This document shows positions 594 through 25,955 of a stretch of 64,000 nucleotides of DNA, piece by piece; positions within the stretch are counted from its first letter, which is position 1, and every line of letters begins with the position of its first letter. The stretch is from a virus: IMG/VR virus record IMGVR_UViG_3300008262_000188, positions 1-64,000 of that record. One strand, given 5' to 3'. The notes beneath the pieces are model-generated. The model did no database searches and had not been told where the DNA came from. It worked only from the letters and a program-made list of their open reading frames with translations. The translations under genes were made by a program, and so were the position numbers.

Positions 594-2033
594 TTACGAT
601 TCATAATGCGTGGAAGAAACAACGGGAATGCGCTCGGATTCGTATAATCTAACTCTCTCGTCAAAATGCTTCTTTCCGTAAATTAAGCATGTGTCTGCTA
701 TGTCAAATATAGTGGCTATTTCTTTTGTGTGATGCAATCTCAAACTTCTTCCAATTGATTGAATTATTTTAATTCTTGCTTTTCCTATTGCTGCAAATAT
801 TATATTATGTAAATTTTTAATAGAAATACCTGTAGAAAATATTTTAGAAATTGCTATGCACACAACTCCAGACTTTTCTTCCATAAGCTTTCTCATGTTC
901 TCCCTTTCTTCCAATTCAACAGATCCTTGTATAAAATATATTTCTTTATTAGTGTGATCTTGTAAAAACTGCAAAAGATGCTCTCCGTGTACTATACGGT
1001 CAACCAATATTAAAGTGTTAGTTTCAAGTTTATTTATTAGTTTCGATATTATAGAATTTCTGTACAAGTTGGTATGAAGCCATGTGATTTCTTCTTCATA
1101 TCCTGCTGTTGGGTCGTTAACGGATGGTTTTGAAAACTGTGGTATGTCTTTATAGTTAAGCTCTAAAGAAACTACTCGCACTTTTGAAATATATTTATCC
1201 TGTCTAAGATCTATAGATTTCTTATGAAAGATAATAGAACCAAAAATTCTGTTTATAGACCAAACGTCAAATTTCGATTCTGGCAAAGAACCTGTAAATC
1301 CAAATATTCTTTCACACTTCAAATTCTTAATAAGCTTTGAAATTTTTTCAGCTGTAGCGAATTTGTGACACTCATCAACAATAATCGTCGAAAACGATGA
1401 AAGAACGTTTTGGTCTTGTTTTTCTGATAAAAGTATTTGATTGTTTGCTATTACTATTTTTGAGTTAGTAAATTCATGAGAGCCAGTCCATCTAGAAATC
1501 AACGAATCGTCAATTCCGTATTCTAAAAAATCTTTGTATGTTTGTTGAACTAATTGAATGTCTGGAACTAAAATTAGTACGTTATCACTACTGTGTTTTA
1601 AAATGGTTGAAGTTATTAAAGCAATTACAAGTGTTTTGCCTGCTGAAGTTGGAAGAACTACCACCCCTCTTCCTTTTTGTAATGCTGTTTCGGCAGAAGA
1701 TTTTTGATAATCTCTAGGTGGAAAGTTGAGTGTGACTAACTCTTCGTTTATACTTTTATTTGATAATCGGATTACTAGCTCATCAGTAAAATGGATTTTA
1801 GCAGAAGGAAATTTTGACTTAAGTTCTTGACAAATAGTTCCAGTAAAAGGCAAATCATACATTCCTTTATTTGTAATAGCATATTTTCTTACGGGTAAGT
1901 TTCTGCCAGTTCTTTTTCTTAAAAATAATAAAGCTTTGTCTTCTACTGAAAAATGCTCTCTAATTTGAGGCAAAAATTCGGATATGATTTTAGGTTTTCT
2001 GGAAACTGTATCAAAATCAAATGTTATATTCAT
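594..2033 (-). CDS. uvsW: UvsW-like RNA/DNA helicase
   Basis: SF2 helicase of 479 residues, close to T4 UvsW (about 500). An N-terminal ~100-residue region precedes the motor. Visible motifs: TSAGKT (Walker A, about 129-134), DECH (about 220-223), FTGS (about 246-249) and QSIGRSLRLHHTK near 430 (motif VI). T4 UvsW unwinds branched recombination intermediates and R-loops and helps switch off origin-dependent replication. It is followed at 10 bases upstream by the Nudix gene and then uvsY, giving a leftward recombination operon. Start at 2033 is the first ATG and gives a full N-terminal domain. Confidence 0.88.
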   Translation of the reverse strand: MNITFDFDTVSRKPKIISEFLPQIREHFSVEDKALLFLRKRTGRNLPVRKYAITNKGMYDLPFTGTICQELKSKFPSAKIHFTDELVIRLSNKSINEELVTLNFPPRDYQKSSAETALQKGRGVVVLPTSAGKTLVIALITSTILKHSSDNVLILVPDIQLVQQTYKDFLEYGIDDSLISRWTGSHEFTNSKIVIANNQILLSEKQDQNVLSSFSTIIVDECHKFATAEKISKLIKNLKCERIFGFTGSLPESKFDVWSINRIFGSIIFHKKSIDLRQDKYISKVRVVSLELNYKDIPQFSKPSVNDPTAGYEEEITWLHTNLYRNSIISKLINKLETNTLILVDRIVHGEHLLQFLQDHTNKEIYFIQGSVELEERENMRKLMEEKSGVVCIAISKIFSTGISIKNLHNIIFAAIGKARIKIIQSIGRSLRLHHTKEIATIFDIADTCLIYGKKHFDERVRLYESERIPVVSSTHYES

Positions 2034-2042
2034 GTAAAATTT

Positions 2043-2468
2043 TTATCTTAAAACTTGATTTAAAACTTCATGAAAACGCCAAAAAATTTTAAGTTCACTT
2101 TCTTGTTTTGTTAAAAACCCGGCCCAATCAATTTCATCTAATTGCAATTGGGTTTTCGGTACGACTAAATTCGTCAGTCCTATTTCCGATAAAGAATGAA
2201 TTTTTAATAAAAATAATATTACTTTTTTAACTATCTTTTTTTTGTTTTTATTATAGTATTCTACTTCGTATTTGGATGCAAATTTGGGATTATATAAACT
2301 TATTCCAATTTCTTCCTTGCATTCTCTTATTGCTGTTTCTTCAAACGTTTCTCCCTCATCAACTTGTCCTTTTGGAAAACTAAAGCTGTTATTATAAGAA
2401 GCGTTTGTAGGATGACAAAGAAGTACTTTGTTGTCAAATAAAAAAATAATACCAGCAGAAATCTTCAT
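2043..2468 (-). CDS. Nudix hydrolase
   Basis: A 141-residue protein with an intact Nudix box GQVDEGETFEETAIREC followed by KEEIGI (about residues 34-56), matching G-x5-E-x7-R-E-U-x-E-E-x-G-U. Such enzymes hydrolyse nucleoside diphosphates linked to another group; the substrate cannot be read from sequence. The stop codon of uvsY overlaps its ATG by four bases (ATGA type), so it is translated in the uvsY-Nudix-uvsW operon. Small Nudix proteins are common in T4-like phages (T4 NudE), but orthology is not shown here. Confidence 0.85.
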   Translation of the reverse strand: MKISAGIIFLFDNKVLLCHPTNASYNNSFSFPKGQVDEGETFEETAIRECKEEIGISLYNPKFASKYEVEYYNKNKKKIVKKVILFLLKIHSLSEIGLTNLVVPKTQLQLDEIDWAGFLTKQESELKIFWRFHEVLNQVLR

Positions 2469-2872
2469 GTCGTTTCTAATGTAATTATTTTAGTAAGATT
2501 AGTCATTCCGTATTGAGTGTCTCTAAAGTTAGCTTCGACCTTGCTGAGATATTCTACCAAAAACTCGTTATTTGCTATTTCATCATCAATTTTTAAGATA
2601 ATTTCATTCGTTGCTATGGATTCGCTGATAGTTTTAATGCTGAGAGTAACTGGCGATTCTTCTTCTAATTTTGCTTTAATGGTTTTGCTTGCTTTTTCTT
2701 TTGCTTTTTTGAGTTTTATAATTTGTTGTTTGTGATACATTAGCCGACCTACCCAATAATGTCTAACGGATGGTAGTGCCATTTGTGAGTCTTTAATGTT
2801 TAATTCATCAAATTTCAAAAACGTCTCAATTTTTTCATGATATTCTTGAAAAAGATTAGATGCATCAGCCAT
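2465..2872 (-). CDS. uvsY: UvsY-like recombination mediator
   Basis: A mostly helical, charged protein. T4 UvsY is 137 residues; from the ATG at 2872 this is 135. The reading frame can be extended to a TTG at 2893, but ATG 2872 gives the T4-like length and N-terminus. Recognisable features are the sequence MALPSVRHYWVGRLMYHKQQ near residues 33-52 and the Lys-rich helix that follows, as in UvsY, which loads the UvsX recombinase onto gp32-coated single-stranded DNA. Position upstream of uvsW supports the call. UvsX is not in this window. Confidence 0.8.
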   Translation of the reverse strand: MADASNLFQEYHEKIETFLKFDELNIKDSQMALPSVRHYWVGRLMYHKQQIIKLKKAKEKASKTIKAKLEEESPVTLSIKTISESIATNEIILKIDDEIANNEFLVEYLSKVEANFRDTQYGMTNLTKIITLETT

Positions 2873-2894
2873 ATCGTTAATGATATACGTCAAA

Positions 2895-3300
2895 ATAGGT
2901 TATTCAACAGCAAAAAAGGCTTAAAAGGTCTTTAAGTTCCGGTTATTCAGATTGAAGGAGGGAGGTCCCCCATTATTGGGATAACCTCCTGTCTTTGAAA
3001 TTCCGTATAAAACGAGTCTCAGTCGGGTTAACAAGCTTCAAAATTTTGCAAAGCAAAAAATATGCCCCCTCGGTTGTTCTGTAAGGGCTGGCTTGAGCGG
3101 TCCTGGCAATGGCCAAACAACGGTCACGCATAAAGCGCACATCGAGTAGTGTTTTTATTTATTAATCGCTGACTCCTGTTTATTTATCTCCCAACGAAGA
3201 CCCGCGTTGAAACGCTTTGGCTGGCACTAACAGCGACTGTTTTAAATTATGTTATTTTTTAAAAAAAGCAACATTTTGTTGTCTTTTTTAATTTTTAGTT
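2895..3300. ncRNA. Candidate structured non-coding RNA region
   Basis: About 400 bases without a convincing gene on either strand, and strikingly GC-rich compared with the surrounding DNA (34 of 60 bases are G/C at 3061-3120; 31 of 60 at 3181-3240). Complementary segments visible by eye: GGAGGT 2961-2966 with ACCTCC 2984-2989 enclosing CCC/GGG; GCCC 3064-3067 with GGGC 3085-3088; GTTGTT 3073-3078 with AACAAC 3116-3121, which would interleave with the previous helix as a pseudoknot; TCGCTG 3166-3171 with CAGCGA 3231-3236, enclosing CCAA 3191-3194/TTGG 3217-3220 and GCGTT 3204-3208/AACGC 3211-3215. It does not show RNase P, SRP, 6S or group I intron landmarks. Strand is undecided; a weak hairpin plus T-run near 2913-2935 would suit leftward transcription. 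Confidence 0.55.
3279..3284 (+). promoter_or_regulatory. TTGTCT -35-like box
   Basis: TTGTCT lies 36 bases before the ATG at 3315. It is one of a recurrent set of TTGWCW boxes at near-constant distance from start codons. Confidence 0.45.
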
Positions 3301-3314
3301 TGAAACTTTAGCCA

Positions 3315-3842
3315 ATGAATATCTTTTGCACCAATAACGATCCAGTGATATCAGCTCAAGAGCTTTGTGATCAGCATTGTAGGTCTAAAATGCAAATTGA
3401 ATCAGCAATTTTGCTTCAACATTGCTTTTCTAATCAAACATTACTGTCAGCTCCTTTGACTAAAAAAGGATCCCCACGTAAATCTGGCAAAGGGTATTAC
3501 AATCATCCATGTGCTGTATGGACAAGAGAGTCAACATCAAACTTTTTGTGGCTTTGTGATCATGCTTTAGAAATGTTTAATGAGCGAACCTATCGATGGA
3601 CAACTTCTAACGAGCATTTTACCAAATCATTTATAGAATGGTGCAAAAGCAATGTAGATAAAACAGAGCATTGTAAAAAAAGCGAATTGACTCCCTTTGC
3701 AATCGCTATTAACTTAGAATCTAAGTGCAGAAAAATTGCTGGTTTTGATCAACTTTCTACTATAGACAAATACAAACAATACATTCGGTTAGATAAAGCT
3801 TTTGCAACTTGGACAAAGCGCTCTAAGCCGTCTTGGTATTAG
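3315..3842 (+). CDS. Conserved phage protein, 'NHPCAVWTRES' family (pyrimidine-dimer glycosylase-like)
   Basis: A 175-residue soluble protein beginning MNIFCTNNDPVISAQELCDQ and carrying HCRSKMQIESAILLQ and YYNHPCAVWTRES. This pattern (MNIF..D.DP..cA...CD.H..KM..E.aQ...NHPc..W.R.S) is a widespread phage family that I recall being annotated as pyrimidine dimer DNA glycosylase-like; no catalytic proof is visible. It would cut beside UV-damaged bases if that annotation holds. It is preceded by a TTGTCT box at 3279 and stands alone. Confidence 0.55.
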   Translation: MNIFCTNNDPVISAQELCDQHCRSKMQIESAILLQHCFSNQTLLSAPLTKKGSPRKSGKGYYNHPCAVWTRESTSNFLWLCDHALEMFNERTYRWTTSNEHFTKSFIEWCKSNVDKTEHCKKSELTPFAIAINLESKCRKIAGFDQLSTIDKYKQYIRLDKAFATWTKRSKPSWY

Positions 3843-3848
3843 TCTTTA

Positions 3849-3965
3849 TTATTTTTTCTTTACGCAATTAGGGACAACCTTATTGCCCTTCTTCTTTACT
3901 CCCTTTTGTTGGTATCCCTTCCAACATTTTTCCATTATCATAGATACTAATTTGTCAAATTTCAT
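3849..3965 (-). CDS. Small Lys-rich phage protein (38 aa)
   Basis: A short leftward gene from ATG 3965 to TAA 3849. It reads MKFDKLVSMIMEKCWKGYQQ and then a basic tail ending PNCVKKK. The pattern KGY..KG.KKK.GK..PNCV recurs in small proteins of marine T4-like phages, so it is probably real although very short. It is divergent from the gene at 3988, with 22 bases between the starts. Function unknown. Confidence 0.5.
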   Translation of the reverse strand: MKFDKLVSMIMEKCWKGYQQKGVKKKGNKVVPNCVKKK

Positions 3966-3987
3966 ATATTTTTATTAAATATTATTT

Positions 3988-4251
3988 ATGACAAAAAGCT
4001 TTAAAGAAGCGTATAATGCAGCTCTTTCTTTTATATCGAACGATTGTTATACCAAAACGAACAGCATTAATGAGGATTCTGAGGGGGGTGCAACAAGTTC
4101 GTCGTTTGGCGATGGAATAGATTCAACATCTACAGCTTTTAGTGGTGACAATTACGCCAAAGATGATGCTAGAATTCCTTATGGTATATACGGAGGAGTA
4201 ATAACTCGTTATGGAATGAAAAAAAGCAGAAAAAAACGCAGAAAAAAGTAA
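3988..4251 (+). CDS. Small Ser/Gly-rich protein with basic C-terminus
   Basis: An 87-residue protein of unknown function. The N-terminus MTKSFKEAYNAALSF resembles the start motif shared by the putative internal head proteins at 8349, 12322 and 9555 (aromatic, acidic residue, Tyr, aliphatic), but no clear L/I-x-E cleavage site follows. The middle is Ser/Gly/Asp-rich and probably disordered. The last 14 residues are almost all Lys and Arg, suggesting nucleic-acid binding. It is followed after one base by the GIY-YIG-like gene. Confidence 0.5.
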   Translation: MTKSFKEAYNAALSFISNDCYTKTNSINEDSEGGATSSSFGDGIDSTSTAFSGDNYAKDDARIPYGIYGGVITRYGMKKSRKKRRKK

Positions 4252-17684: not shown

Positions 17685-18136
17685 TGGAGATGAGGGGAAT
17701 CGAACCCCTGTCCATATAACCTAAGCTAAAAGGTCTTCACACGTTTGGATACATTCAACATTTCAGCCACCTTACGGTGACAAAGACAAAAGGCTGCATG
17801 GTTGTATCAACCGATTTTTATGTCTGCCTGCACAAGTGAGAGGTCTTGTACTACCTCTGTATCAGTTTTTCTATGATCTCTAACAGTTCATCAAAACCTC
17901 TGCGTTTCAAAATAGATTTAGAGGATCCTCTATTAGGCTCTTAGGCTTCGAGAGCACAAGCTTCTTCAACGTCGATGAGAAACTCATCAGCGTTGTTGAA
18001 GATGTAATCAGCTTCAGCTAAGAGATCAGAAGTATTGTCTTCTGCGTTTAGTGTTCAATCGATTTTTAAAGAGGCCATCGATTAACCTCTACATGCGCTT
18101 TTAGTTTCAACTATATGTCGAAACCAGGGCACCCCC
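17685..18136 (-). ncRNA. ssrA: tmRNA (one-piece) with long tag reading frame
   Basis: The 5' end GGGGGUG (18136-18130) pairs with CAUCUCC (17692-17686) to close a 7-bp acceptor stem with A at 17685 as discriminator; CCA is not encoded. GGUUUCGAC near the 5' end and GGGGUUCGAUUCCCC at the 3' end are the standard tmRNA D- and T-arm features. An H-type pseudoknot before the tag (GAGG with CCUC, and AAUCGAU with AUCGAUU) matches PK1 of E. coli tmRNA. The resume codon GCA at 18045-18043 follows UAAAC, equivalent to UAGUC in E. coli. The frame runs 34 codons to UAA at 17943-17941 and begins AEDNTSDLLAEADY, ending VEEACALEA. Trans-translation with phage-supplied tmRNA is the expected role. Confidence 0.93.
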
Positions 18137-24049: not shown

Positions 24050-24124
24050 TGGCGAGTAGCTCAGTGGTAGAGCGGTCGGCTGTTAACCGATTGGTCGTAG
24101 GTTCGAATCCTACCTTGCCAGCCA
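24050..24124 (+). tRNA. tRNA-Asn (GTT)
   Basis: Acceptor TGGCGAG/CTTGCCA, anticodon loop CTGTTAA, T loop TTCGAAT, discriminator G, CCA encoded at 24122-24124. Confidence 0.93.
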
Positions 24125-24140
24125 CTTTAACATTGTTTTT

Positions 24141-24226
24141 GCTCGGATGGCGTAATGGCAGCCGCAACGGACTTAAAATCCGTTGGTCTAACGACCGTGA
24201 GGGTTCGAGTCCCTCTCCGAGTACCA
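24141..24226 (+). tRNA. tRNA-Leu (TAA)
   Basis: Class II tRNA: anticodon loop CTTAAAA, long variable arm, T loop TTCGAGT, acceptor GCTCGGA/TCCGAGT, CCA encoded. Confidence 0.92.
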
Positions 24227-24234
24227 CTTTCTAC

Positions 24235-24311
24235 GTTTCCATAGCTCAACTGGATAGAGCAACGCTCTTCTAAAGCGTAGGTTGCTGGTTCGATTCCAGC
24301 TGGGAACGCCA
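24235..24311 (+). tRNA. tRNA-Arg (TCT)
   Basis: Acceptor GTTTCCA/TGGGAAC, anticodon loop CTTCTAA, T loop TTCGATT, CCA encoded. Confidence 0.93.
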
Positions 24312-24320
24312 TTTTATAAT

Positions 24321-24393
<73 letters not shown>

Positions 24394-24401
24394 TTTTTTT
24401 T

Positions 24402-24496
24402 GCAAGGTTAGTATAACTGGATAGTACCGACAGACTTATAATCTGTGTGCCCTAGATGTGGGCCGAGCGTGGGTTCGATTCCCACACCTTGCACCA
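24402..24496 (+). tRNA. Class II tRNA with TAT anticodon (Ile by codon)
   Basis: Acceptor GCAAGGT/ACCTTGC, D stem GTAT/GTAC, anticodon stem ACAGA/TCTGT with loop CTTATAA (anticodon TAT, reads AUA), then a 22-base variable arm containing GCCC/GGGC, T loop TTCGATT, A73, CCA encoded. A long variable arm is normal for Leu, Ser and Tyr, not for Ile. Confidence 0.85.
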
Positions 24497-24520
24497 TTTT
24501 TAAACAAAACAATATTTTGC

Positions 24521-24605
24521 GGGTAGTTCGTATAGCGGCAATTACCGGAGACTGTAAATCTCCTGCCTTCGGGCTTCGCAGGTTCGAGTCCTGCACTACC
24601 CACCA
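24521..24605 (+). tRNA. tRNA-Tyr (GTA)
   Basis: Class II: acceptor GGGTAGT/ACTACCC, anticodon loop CTGTAAA, variable hairpin GCCTTCGGGC, T loop TTCGAGT, CCA encoded. Confidence 0.92.
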
Positions 24606-24655
24606 CTTCAGGAAGATTTGAACTCGATGTACAAATTGTATAAATAAACCAACTT

Positions 24656-24727
24656 CGAGTACGAGGAAGAAAGAAATCCGCCTGGTTTGGGACCAGGAAA
24701 TACTCGGGGCAGTACCGAGGTACTCGA
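24656..24727 (+). tRNA. Degenerate tRNA-Pro-like element (TGG)
   Basis: A complete cloverleaf can be drawn: acceptor CGAGTAC (24656-24662) with GTACTCG (24720-24726), D stem GGA/TCC, anticodon stem CCTGG/CCAGG with loop TTTGGGA (anticodon TGG), T stem CTCGG/CCGAG. C1:G72, A73 and the TGG anticodon are the bacterial proline identity set. But the D loop (AGAAAGAAA) lacks GG and the T loop (GGCAGTA) lacks TTC, so the normal elbow cannot form. No CCA. It sits three bases before tRNA-Gly. Confidence 0.6.
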
Positions 24728-24730
24728 TAT

Positions 24731-24804
24731 GCGGGATTAGTTTAATGGTAAAACAGGAGTTTTCCAAACTTCGGTTGGGAGTTCGATTCTCCCATCCCGC
24801 ACCA
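24731..24804 (+). tRNA. tRNA-Gly (TCC)
   Basis: Acceptor GCGGGAT/ATCCCGC, anticodon loop TTTCCAA, T loop TTCGATT, CCA encoded. Confidence 0.93.
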
Positions 24805-24809
24805 TTTTC

Positions 24810-24883
24810 AGACCTATAGCTCAGTTGGTTAGAGCAGTTCATTGATAATGAACAGGTCGTTGGTTCAAGTCCAACTAGGTCTA
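24810..24883 (+). tRNA. tRNA-Ile (GAT)
   Basis: Acceptor AGACCTA/TAGGTCT, anticodon loop TTGATAA, T loop TTCAAGT, A73, no full CCA. Confidence 0.92.
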
Positions 24884-24894
24884 CATTTATAATA

Positions 24895-24920
24895 GGCGGA
24901 GTTAGCTCAGCGGTAGAGCT
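24895..24920 (+). pseudogene. 5' fragment of a tRNA gene broken by the HNH gene
   Basis: GGCGGAGTTAGCTCAGCGGT and the following AGAGCT form the acceptor 5' strand and a complete D arm of a tRNA, then the sequence stops abruptly. No matching 3' half exists between 24921 and 25526. The tRNA identity is lost with the anticodon. Confidence 0.75.
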
Positions 24921-25468
24921 AATTTTTTAATTCTATATCTTTTATTATAAGATGAACGTTTGGTGTTTTTAATGTTCCGTCCACAAAATGTTTCAGTTTG
25001 TGAGTGACAATTTGGACATAACAATCTTAAATTCTCTAAAAAATTGTTATCAGAATTACCGTCTATGTGATCCAAATGCAAACTTAAACGTTTTCCGTTC
25101 CATTCTGTAATGCCACAGCAAAAGCATTTGTGCTTTGTTTTAAATTCTATTACACGTTTTAATGTCGAGGATTGGTTTATTAGTCCTTGCTCAGCTCTTA
25201 AAAGAGTTTCATTAAGAAATTGAAAATCTCTTTGACATTTATTACTGCAATATGTTCCAGTAGACGCATGACAAGAATACACAAACTCGACTTTACAATT
25301 TTTACAGTTGCTTTTAAATGAGGTTGTATTTTTATACTCTCTTTGCTTGTTATTATATGAAGCTGCACAAGATCGATTACAGAATTTTTTTAAACGCTCT
25401 TCTTTGCATTTGTTTTGAAAAAAAATACTAGTACAATTTTGACAAACTGATTCAATTAGATTAGGCAT
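24902..25468 (-). CDS. HNH homing-type endonuclease with zinc fingers
   Basis: 188 residues. Three Cys clusters in the first ~80 residues (CQNC.., CKNCKVEF, YCSNKCQRDF) are zinc fingers; the HNH core reads CFCCGITEWNGKRLSLHLDH then NFLENLRLLCPNCHSQT (about 115-165). This is the phage-type homing endonuclease layout. Its last six codons and stop (LALPLS) are read from the antisense of the tRNA 5' fragment at 24902-24920, so the gene invaded a tRNA. A CATAAATA box lies six bases before the ATG, suggesting late expression. Confidence 0.85.
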   Translation of the reverse strand: MPNLIESVCQNCTSIFFQNKCKEERLKKFCNRSCAASYNNKQREYKNTTSFKSNCKNCKVEFVYSCHASTGTYCSNKCQRDFQFLNETLLRAEQGLINQSSTLKRVIEFKTKHKCFCCGITEWNGKRLSLHLDHIDGNSDNNFLENLRLLCPNCHSQTETFCGRNIKNTKRSSYNKRYRIKKLALPLS

Positions 25469-25474
25469 GTATAT

Positions 25475-25482
25475 TATTTATG
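25475..25482 (-). promoter_or_regulatory. Late promoter-like CATAAATA
   Basis: Minus-strand box ending six bases before the HNH ATG at 25468. Confidence 0.45.
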
Positions 25483-25526
25483 AGAATAAGACCAAATATT
25501 TCAAAACAAATGGTCTATTTTTCAAA

Positions 25527-25602
25527 GCTCGGGTAACTTAGCGACTAAAGTACCTGCTTTACACGCAGGCTATCGTGGGTTTGAGTCCCACCCCGAGCAC
25601 CA
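25527..25602 (+). tRNA. tRNA-Val (TAC)
   Basis: Acceptor GCTCGGG/CCCGAGC, anticodon loop TTTACAC, T loop TTTGAGT, CCA encoded. Confidence 0.92.
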
Positions 25603-25609
25603 TTTTAAA

Positions 25610-25692
25610 GCTCATGTGGCGAAATTGGCAGCACGCGCCAGACTTAGGATCTGGTTCCGTAAGGAATGTGGGTTCGAGTCCCTCCATGAGCA
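25610..25692 (+). tRNA. tRNA-Leu (TAG)
   Basis: Class II: acceptor GCTCATG/CATGAGC, anticodon loop CTTAGGA, T loop TTCGAGT, A73, no CCA. Confidence 0.92.
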
Positions 25693-25710
25693 TATTTTAA
25701 TTAAATAAAA

Positions 25711-25795
25711 GGAAGGGTGGCAGAGTGGTCTATTGCAGCGGTTTACTAAACCGCCGAGGCGCAAGTCTCCGAGAGTTCGAATCTCTCCTCTTCCG
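25711..25795 (+). tRNA. tRNA-Ser (ACT)
   Basis: Class II: acceptor GGAAGGG/CTCTTCC, G73 as in Ser, anticodon stem GCGGT/ACCGC, loop TTACTAA giving anticodon ACT, T loop TTCGAAT, no CCA. Bacteria normally use GCT here; A34 is unusual. Confidence 0.85.
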
Positions 25796-25801
25796 TTTTT
25801 T

Positions 25802-25876
25802 GCTCCCATAGTGTAGCGGTTAGCACATCTCCCTTTCACGGAGGTAGCAGGGGTTCAAGTCCCCTTGGGAGTGCCA
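25802..25876 (+). tRNA. tRNA-Glu (TTC)
   Basis: Acceptor GCTCCCA/TGGGAGT, anticodon loop CTTTCAC, T loop TTCAAGT, G73, CCA encoded. Confidence 0.92.
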
Positions 25877-25882
25877 TTTTAA

Positions 25883-25955
25883 TACGGAGTAGCACAATTG
25901 GTAGTGCATCAGAATTTGGATCTGAGGGTTATAGGTTCGAGTCCTATCTCCGTAG
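25883..25955 (+). tRNA. tRNA-Gln (TTG)
   Basis: Acceptor TACGGAG/CTCCGTA, anticodon loop ATTTGGA, T loop TTCGAGT, G73, no CCA. The U1-A72 pair is typical of Gln. Confidence 0.92.

Follow-up and report, generated by a model that had tools for sequence, protein, structure and literature searches.

When a virus keeps every stem of a tRNA and departs from consensus in both its D and its T loop, is the product a working tRNA, and what then holds its elbow together? The question is raised by a tRNA-Pro(UGG) element (Table 1) in the window, by which we mean the whole 64,000-nucleotide stretch analysed, taken from a virus record of 69 kb. All 20 of its stem pairs are Watson-Crick, the acceptor, anticodon and T stems have 7, 5 and 5 bp, the anticodon and T loops have 7 nt each, and the proline features UGG, U33, G37, C1:G72 and A73 are all present. 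The cloverleaf is the minimum free-energy fold (-28.6 kcal/mol, z -3.9; equalled by 0 of 200 shuffles) and its cloverleaf score was 22.8, against 21.4 for the best chance structure in 60 Markov copies of the window; these controls rule out a chance cloverleaf as its source. The initial annotation had described the stems and coordinates, the anticodon, C1:G72, A73, a GGCAGTA T loop and a D loop without GG, and all of these were confirmed.

Table 1. Positions in the window of the tRNA-Pro(UGG) gene, its parts and its neighbours
Feature	Position	Strand	Remarks
tRNA array	24050-25955	+	Asn, Leu, Arg, Met, Ile, Tyr, Pro, Gly, Ile, Val, Leu, Ser, Glu, Gln
tRNA-Tyr	24521-24602	+	upstream flank of tRNA-Pro
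Whole tRNA-Pro(UGG) gene, positions 1-73, rewired tertiary core	24656-24727	+	72 nt; CGAGTAC-GA-GGA(AGAAAGAAA)TCC-G-CCTGG(UUUGGGA)CCAGG-AAAUA-CUCGG(GGCAGUA)CCGAG-GUACUCG-A
Acceptor stem, 5' strand	24656-24662	+	CGAGTAC, C1; covaries among relatives
G8 A9	24663-24664	+	G8 in place of U8; G8-G14 coupling
D arm	24665-24679	+	GGA-AGAAAGAAA-TCC; G14, A18, G19, A21; uridine-free loop
Anticodon arm	24681-24697	+	CCTGG-TTTGGGA-CCAGG, G37; anticodon TGG at 24688-24690
Variable loop	24698-24702	+	AAATA
T arm	24703-24719	+	CTCGG-GGCAGTA-CCGAG; G54, G55, C56, A57, G58, A60
Acceptor stem, 3' strand, and discriminator	24720-24727	+	GTACTCG, A73; TAT next, CCA unencoded
tRNA-Gly	24731-24801	+	3 nt downstream of tRNA-Pro
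HNH gene	24902-25468	-	splits the tRNA array

What sets the element apart is its tertiary core. In tRNA, G18-U55 and U54-A58 are regarded as almost universal; here positions 18 and 55 are A and G, and neither canonical reverse Hoogsteen pair is present, U54-A58 being replaced by G54/G58 and U8-A14 by G8/G14. The core therefore reads G8-G14, A18-G55 and G54-G58, and the canonical G19-C56 is kept. As had been anticipated for standard finders, the gene was missed by both programs used: ARAGORN did not report it, and Rfam did not report it as a tRNA either at the gathering threshold of RF00005, below which it falls, or at E ≤ 10. In the same loci, ARAGORN recovered 59 of 316 tRNAs with such an exchanged core (hereafter switched) vs. 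867 of 882 standard ones, and phage tRNA repertoires are therefore undercounted. An elbow swap of this kind is shared by hundreds of other predicted virus tRNAs, most of them missed by ARAGORN. Judged from its sequence, the window element passes as a tRNA on all features tested, apart from the consensus of the core and the thresholds of the finders.

A strict DNA pattern for relatives gave no match. A pattern composed of the anticodon and T arm of the window element matched 46 viral contigs, 45 of which hold a full tRNA-Pro cloverleaf with a GGCAGUA loop, and an anticodon-free pattern returned 62 relatives; C1:G72 and A73 are likewise found in relatives. When the window element was aligned with Val and Asn tRNAs identified in the same contigs by our own cloverleaf finder, G8, A9, A13, G14, A18, G19, A21, G53-G54-G55-C56, G58, A60 and C61 proved invariant. 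An isotype-blind pattern built from these core positions matched 19 contigs when the D loop was set to 7 nt and at least 120 when it was set to 8 nt. Among the matches listed, 135 of 142 in new loci proved to be complete cloverleaves, 80 of them Asn, 25 Val, 19 Pro and 11 Cys; the discriminators are G73 in Asn, A73 in Val and Pro, and U73 in Cys.

The stems of these relatives bear out the suspicion, raised in the initial annotation, that they are under selection. In an alignment of 49 distinct rows to the model, pairing held in 97.7% of cells and two-sided changes occurred at 19 of the 20 pairs; the alignment was fitted to the structure, so that the pair count leans that way, and the margin is large, with a covariation score of 0.984 vs. 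0.209 for shuffles and at most 0.165 for slid structures. A decaying pseudogene would account for D and T loops that are off consensus and for a gene that the finders miss, but decay would leave broken stems and unconstrained loops, whereas here the stems are perfect and covary, the loops and identity bases are conserved, and the element is the sole supplier of its anticodon. We regard a pseudogene as extremely improbable.

Whether the elbow nucleotides had been lost, as first supposed, or exchanged was examined by counting base combinations in good cloverleaves of the fetched loci, with every pattern-matched tRNA left out. After clustering at 80% identity, which reduces shared descent and does not remove it, a D-loop GG (G18-G19) accompanied U55 in 310 of 319 clusters and a D-loop AG (A18-G19) accompanied G55 in 50 of 56 (Fisher p ~2e-43); C56 was retained in 53 of the 56 G55 clusters. 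Six G55 clusters lack the D-loop AG. Several apparent combinations of GG with G55 are in fact A18-G19-G20. One exception to the coupling, a tRNA-Pro on the minus strand of contig L034 (6269-6339), joins a standard D arm to a GGCAGUA T loop and is perhaps a recombinant. Mutual information was highest for 15-48, 54-58, 54-60, 18-55, 58-60 and 8-14, among which 15-48, 54-58, 18-55 and 8-14 are textbook tertiary contacts. Positions 54-58 are U-A, G-G or A-U in nearly all clusters, and 8-14 are mostly U-A or G-G. Further, of the distinct tRNAs with G8-G14, all 26 that have A18 also have G55, and all 10 that have G18 also have U55.

The clearest illustration comes from close sisters. When Pro elements were used as BLAST queries against cultured phages, two yielded no convincing tRNA match, and a third led to standard-elbow sisters in phages GiJojo and BillNye. 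Their tRNA-Pro genes (GACGGCAA with UUCGACU and GACGGUAA with UUCGACC) and those of the viral contigs L135 and L145 (GACAGCAA with GGCAGCA) all have G8-G14, and the difference between them is G18/U55 vs. A18/G55. The initial annotation had reasoned that relatives with a normal tRNA-Pro, together with random decay here, would speak against a working molecule; normal-elbow sisters do exist, but the change that separates them is coordinated rather than random. Because the combination of G8-G14, A18-G55 and G54-G58 with a retained G19-C56 recurs among relatives, the elbow nucleotides are better described as replaced than as lost: many phage tRNAs, belonging to several isotypes, carry this mutually compensating set. 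As contacts, A18-G55 and the G-G pairs are predicted from this covariation, and an alternative loop fold, for example one with a G54-A60 contact, is also to be considered, since 54-60 covaries as well.

In the tRNA-Val gene of the same array (25527-25599) the D loop carries GA and the T loop UUU; this A19-U56 in place of G19-C56 is, as read from the gene, a second compensated elbow change in this array. At 24894-24930 lies the 5' part of a further tRNA (GGCGGAGTTAGCTCAGCGGTAGAGC...), which breaks off at the HNH endonuclease gene, and no 3' half for it was found nearby. The window also encodes a tmRNA (17685-18136) with a long tag, EADYIFNNADEFLIDVEEACALEA; a permuted tmRNA of cyanobacterial type occurs at 12312-12571 of contig L009, which also carries switched Pro and Val tRNAs. 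A protein-based search for relatives of the exonuclease of the window gave none.

The window contains no proline tRNA other than this one, as far as was found, and few switched tRNAs have a standard copy with the same anticodon in the same locus. Since this standard partner is usually absent from mixed arrays, the switched tRNA replaces rather than supplements it. This bears on the suggestion that the element might be a tRNA-like regulator or a decoy for nucleases that takes no part in translation. In four contigs (L003, L014, L027 and L039) ARAGORN sees no other tRNA at the locus, as might be expected of a stand-alone regulator or decoy. Nevertheless, anticodon and discriminator are kept across many isotypes, arrays use the switched tRNA instead of a standard one, and such a main role is unsupported because the anticodon loop carries UUUGGG in 62 of the 62 relatives from the anticodon-free pattern and the expected N73 is present in 62 of 67 clusters of switched tRNAs; we consider it quite unlikely.

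Taken together, conservation and covariation of the stems, the coupled core, the identity bases and the position in an array in which it is the sole supplier uphold the earlier notion of a working but divergent tRNA. Very probably the element is a working tRNA-Pro(UGG) of a tailed phage, with a tertiary core rebuilt by compensating contacts around the retained G19-C56. It would be transcribed together with the array and then trimmed, receive its CCA from a host enzyme, adopt an L shape in which A18-G55 and G-G are in contact, and be charged with proline and used in translation. At the tRNA elbow, G19-C56 is the flat face that lies exposed (review PMC4810234). Its retention fits this role, and for the same reason the L shape and the main recognition platform are probably preserved.

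Two lineages carry the exchange through nearly a whole tRNA set. Contig L133, which seems to represent the same virus as L138, holds on its plus strand, at 826-4034, 28 tRNAs in ~3.3 kb, 27 of them with G55, and the minus-strand array of L141 has G55 in 24 of 25 tRNAs. In both arrays U55 is confined to the CAU tRNA, probably the initiator given its mismatched or wobble 1-72 pair. The L133 virus encodes a gpA-type terminase and RtcB, and the L141 virus encodes RtcB and, within ~500 nt of the array, RlaP. An unannotated, conserved tRNA-Ser-like stretch (L278:6001-6097, L279:5001-5108 and L133:3155-3252) is common to Caulobacter phages, phage DSS3_MAL1 and the L133 array.

Why would a core be exchanged? 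Tentatively, we favour evasion of those host factors that recognise the standard core: an altered core would confer resistance to nucleases (host- or phage-borne) or independence from modification enzymes, and translation would continue when standard tRNAs are damaged. The enzymes escaped could include those for which U8, G18, U54, U55 and the uridines of the D loop are sites of modification. In a comparison in which part of the switched set had been found by patterns that fix some of these bases, switched tRNAs had 1.04 uridines per D loop vs. 1.91 in standard ones (p 6e-10), U8 in 60% vs. 93% and U54 in 34% vs. 100%; in the L133 and L141 arrays, where the pattern matches were the Pro genes only, D-loop uridines numbered 0.86 vs. 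1.68 for standard tRNAs with GC-rich acceptors. With fewer D-loop uridines, U8 and U54, many substrates of core modification therefore vanish. Precedents for escape exist: changes in the anticodon loop have been proposed to let phage tRNAs evade anticodon nucleases (PMC10264068), and T5 tRNA-Tyr is described as resisting cleavage by retron-Eco7 through a distinctive variable loop (PMC11555353, as relayed in PMC13096335). RtcB in both fully switched viruses, accompanied in one by RlaP, and an RNA ligase in the window phage (31039-32043, related to the Naegleria gruberi RNA ligase and 5 kb from the tRNA array) would fit such escape. Against this, RNA ligases are common in large phages, RtcB is missing from 10 of 11 other records examined, and the probable initiators of both switched sets have remained standard, which disfavours a simple model of a nuclease that attacks all tRNAs.

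The swap may instead be neutral, a reading that we hold possible with some doubt: the tRNAs would be functional, weaker cores would be tolerated, and compensating changes would have spread through drift and through recombination among tRNA genes. Intermediates are indeed many (U54-A58 with G55; A54-U58; A19-U56, as in the tRNA-Val of the window), most arrays have one or few switched members, and different isotypes share D arms, as do the window tRNA-Pro and the fMet tRNA of contig L086. Drift is less easily reconciled with two lineages in which essentially every elongator tRNA is switched, with the recurrence of G8-G14, A18-G19 and GGCRGNA together in at least four isotypes, or with the depletion of modifiable D-loop uridines given above, in its partly pattern-selected set. 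Returning to escape, it is conceivable, albeit rather uncertain, that some phages have changed the rules of the tertiary core for their entire tRNA set, with A18-G55 in every elongator and immunity to host nucleases or modification enzymes that recognise the core; the window tRNA-Pro would then be a single-gene example.

Among cultured phages, Synechococcus phages S-N03, MA10, MA01, ME01 and MC09 carry a switched tRNA-Val, and Microcystis phage Mwe-JY26 has four switched tRNAs (Pro, Thr, Asn and Glu); none of these records annotates a tRNA at the switched sites. The S-N03 gene lies on the complement strand of MT162466.1 at 100779-100851; the host of this phage is Synechococcus MW02, and that of Mwe-JY26 is Microcystis wesenbergii. 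In 84,980 bacterial and archaeal species the Pro pattern gave 4 matches and no cloverleaf. A covariance model, by which the best candidates of a loose first pass were scored, found none in 1,092 genomes of three phyla, and the isotype-blind pattern found none in 398 and 398 genomes of two phyla (0 of 796). A cellular origin thus finds no support in the pattern and covariance-model scans of the sampled genomes. The class may be confined to phages, with none in the samples, which for bacteria are limited and in which cyanobacteria and actinobacteria are not sampled separately.

A search of the open-licence literature turned up no earlier description of an A18-G55 tRNA class. Laboratory work on functional tRNA cores by Zagryadskaya and Steinberg (2003, 2004; cited in PMC7912444) may already have yielded such combinations. 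A large natural set of coupled exchanges would show which core contacts can be exchanged and which, such as G19-C56, cannot; it would provide a directly testable example of covariation in tertiary structure, and it would suggest that phage tRNAs are under pressure at sites beyond the anticodon.

Compared with known systems, the window element shares with canonical bacterial tRNA-Pro(UGG) the cloverleaf lengths, UGG, G37, C1:G72, A73 and G19-C56, and differs from it in G8-G14, A18-G55 and G54-G58 and in being missed by ARAGORN and RF00005. The tRNA-Pro of the Streptomyces phages GiJojo and BillNye resembles it in a D arm of G8/G14 type (GAGGAAGACGGCAATCCG) and a similar acceptor stem, but has G18-G19 and a UUCGA T loop of its own, and is found by ARAGORN and annotated as tRNA-Pro. 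Defence-evading phage tRNAs (PMC10264068; PMC11555353) likewise depart from their host counterparts at a functional site; they are changed in the anticodon or variable loop, whereas evasion through a core swap is here putative. Eukaryotic initiator tRNA, with its A54-A58 (PMC7912444), offers a precedent for a purine-purine pair at 54-58; the window class, by contrast, has G-G there, is also changed at 18-55 and 8-14, and consists mostly of phage elongators. Finally, tRNA-Pyl and mitochondrial type II tRNAs (review PMC7609411) are functional without the consensus bases of the D and T loops, but in them the contact between the loops is lost or remodelled, often with altered arm lengths, whereas the class described here keeps standard arm lengths and exchanges the contact positions in a coupled way.
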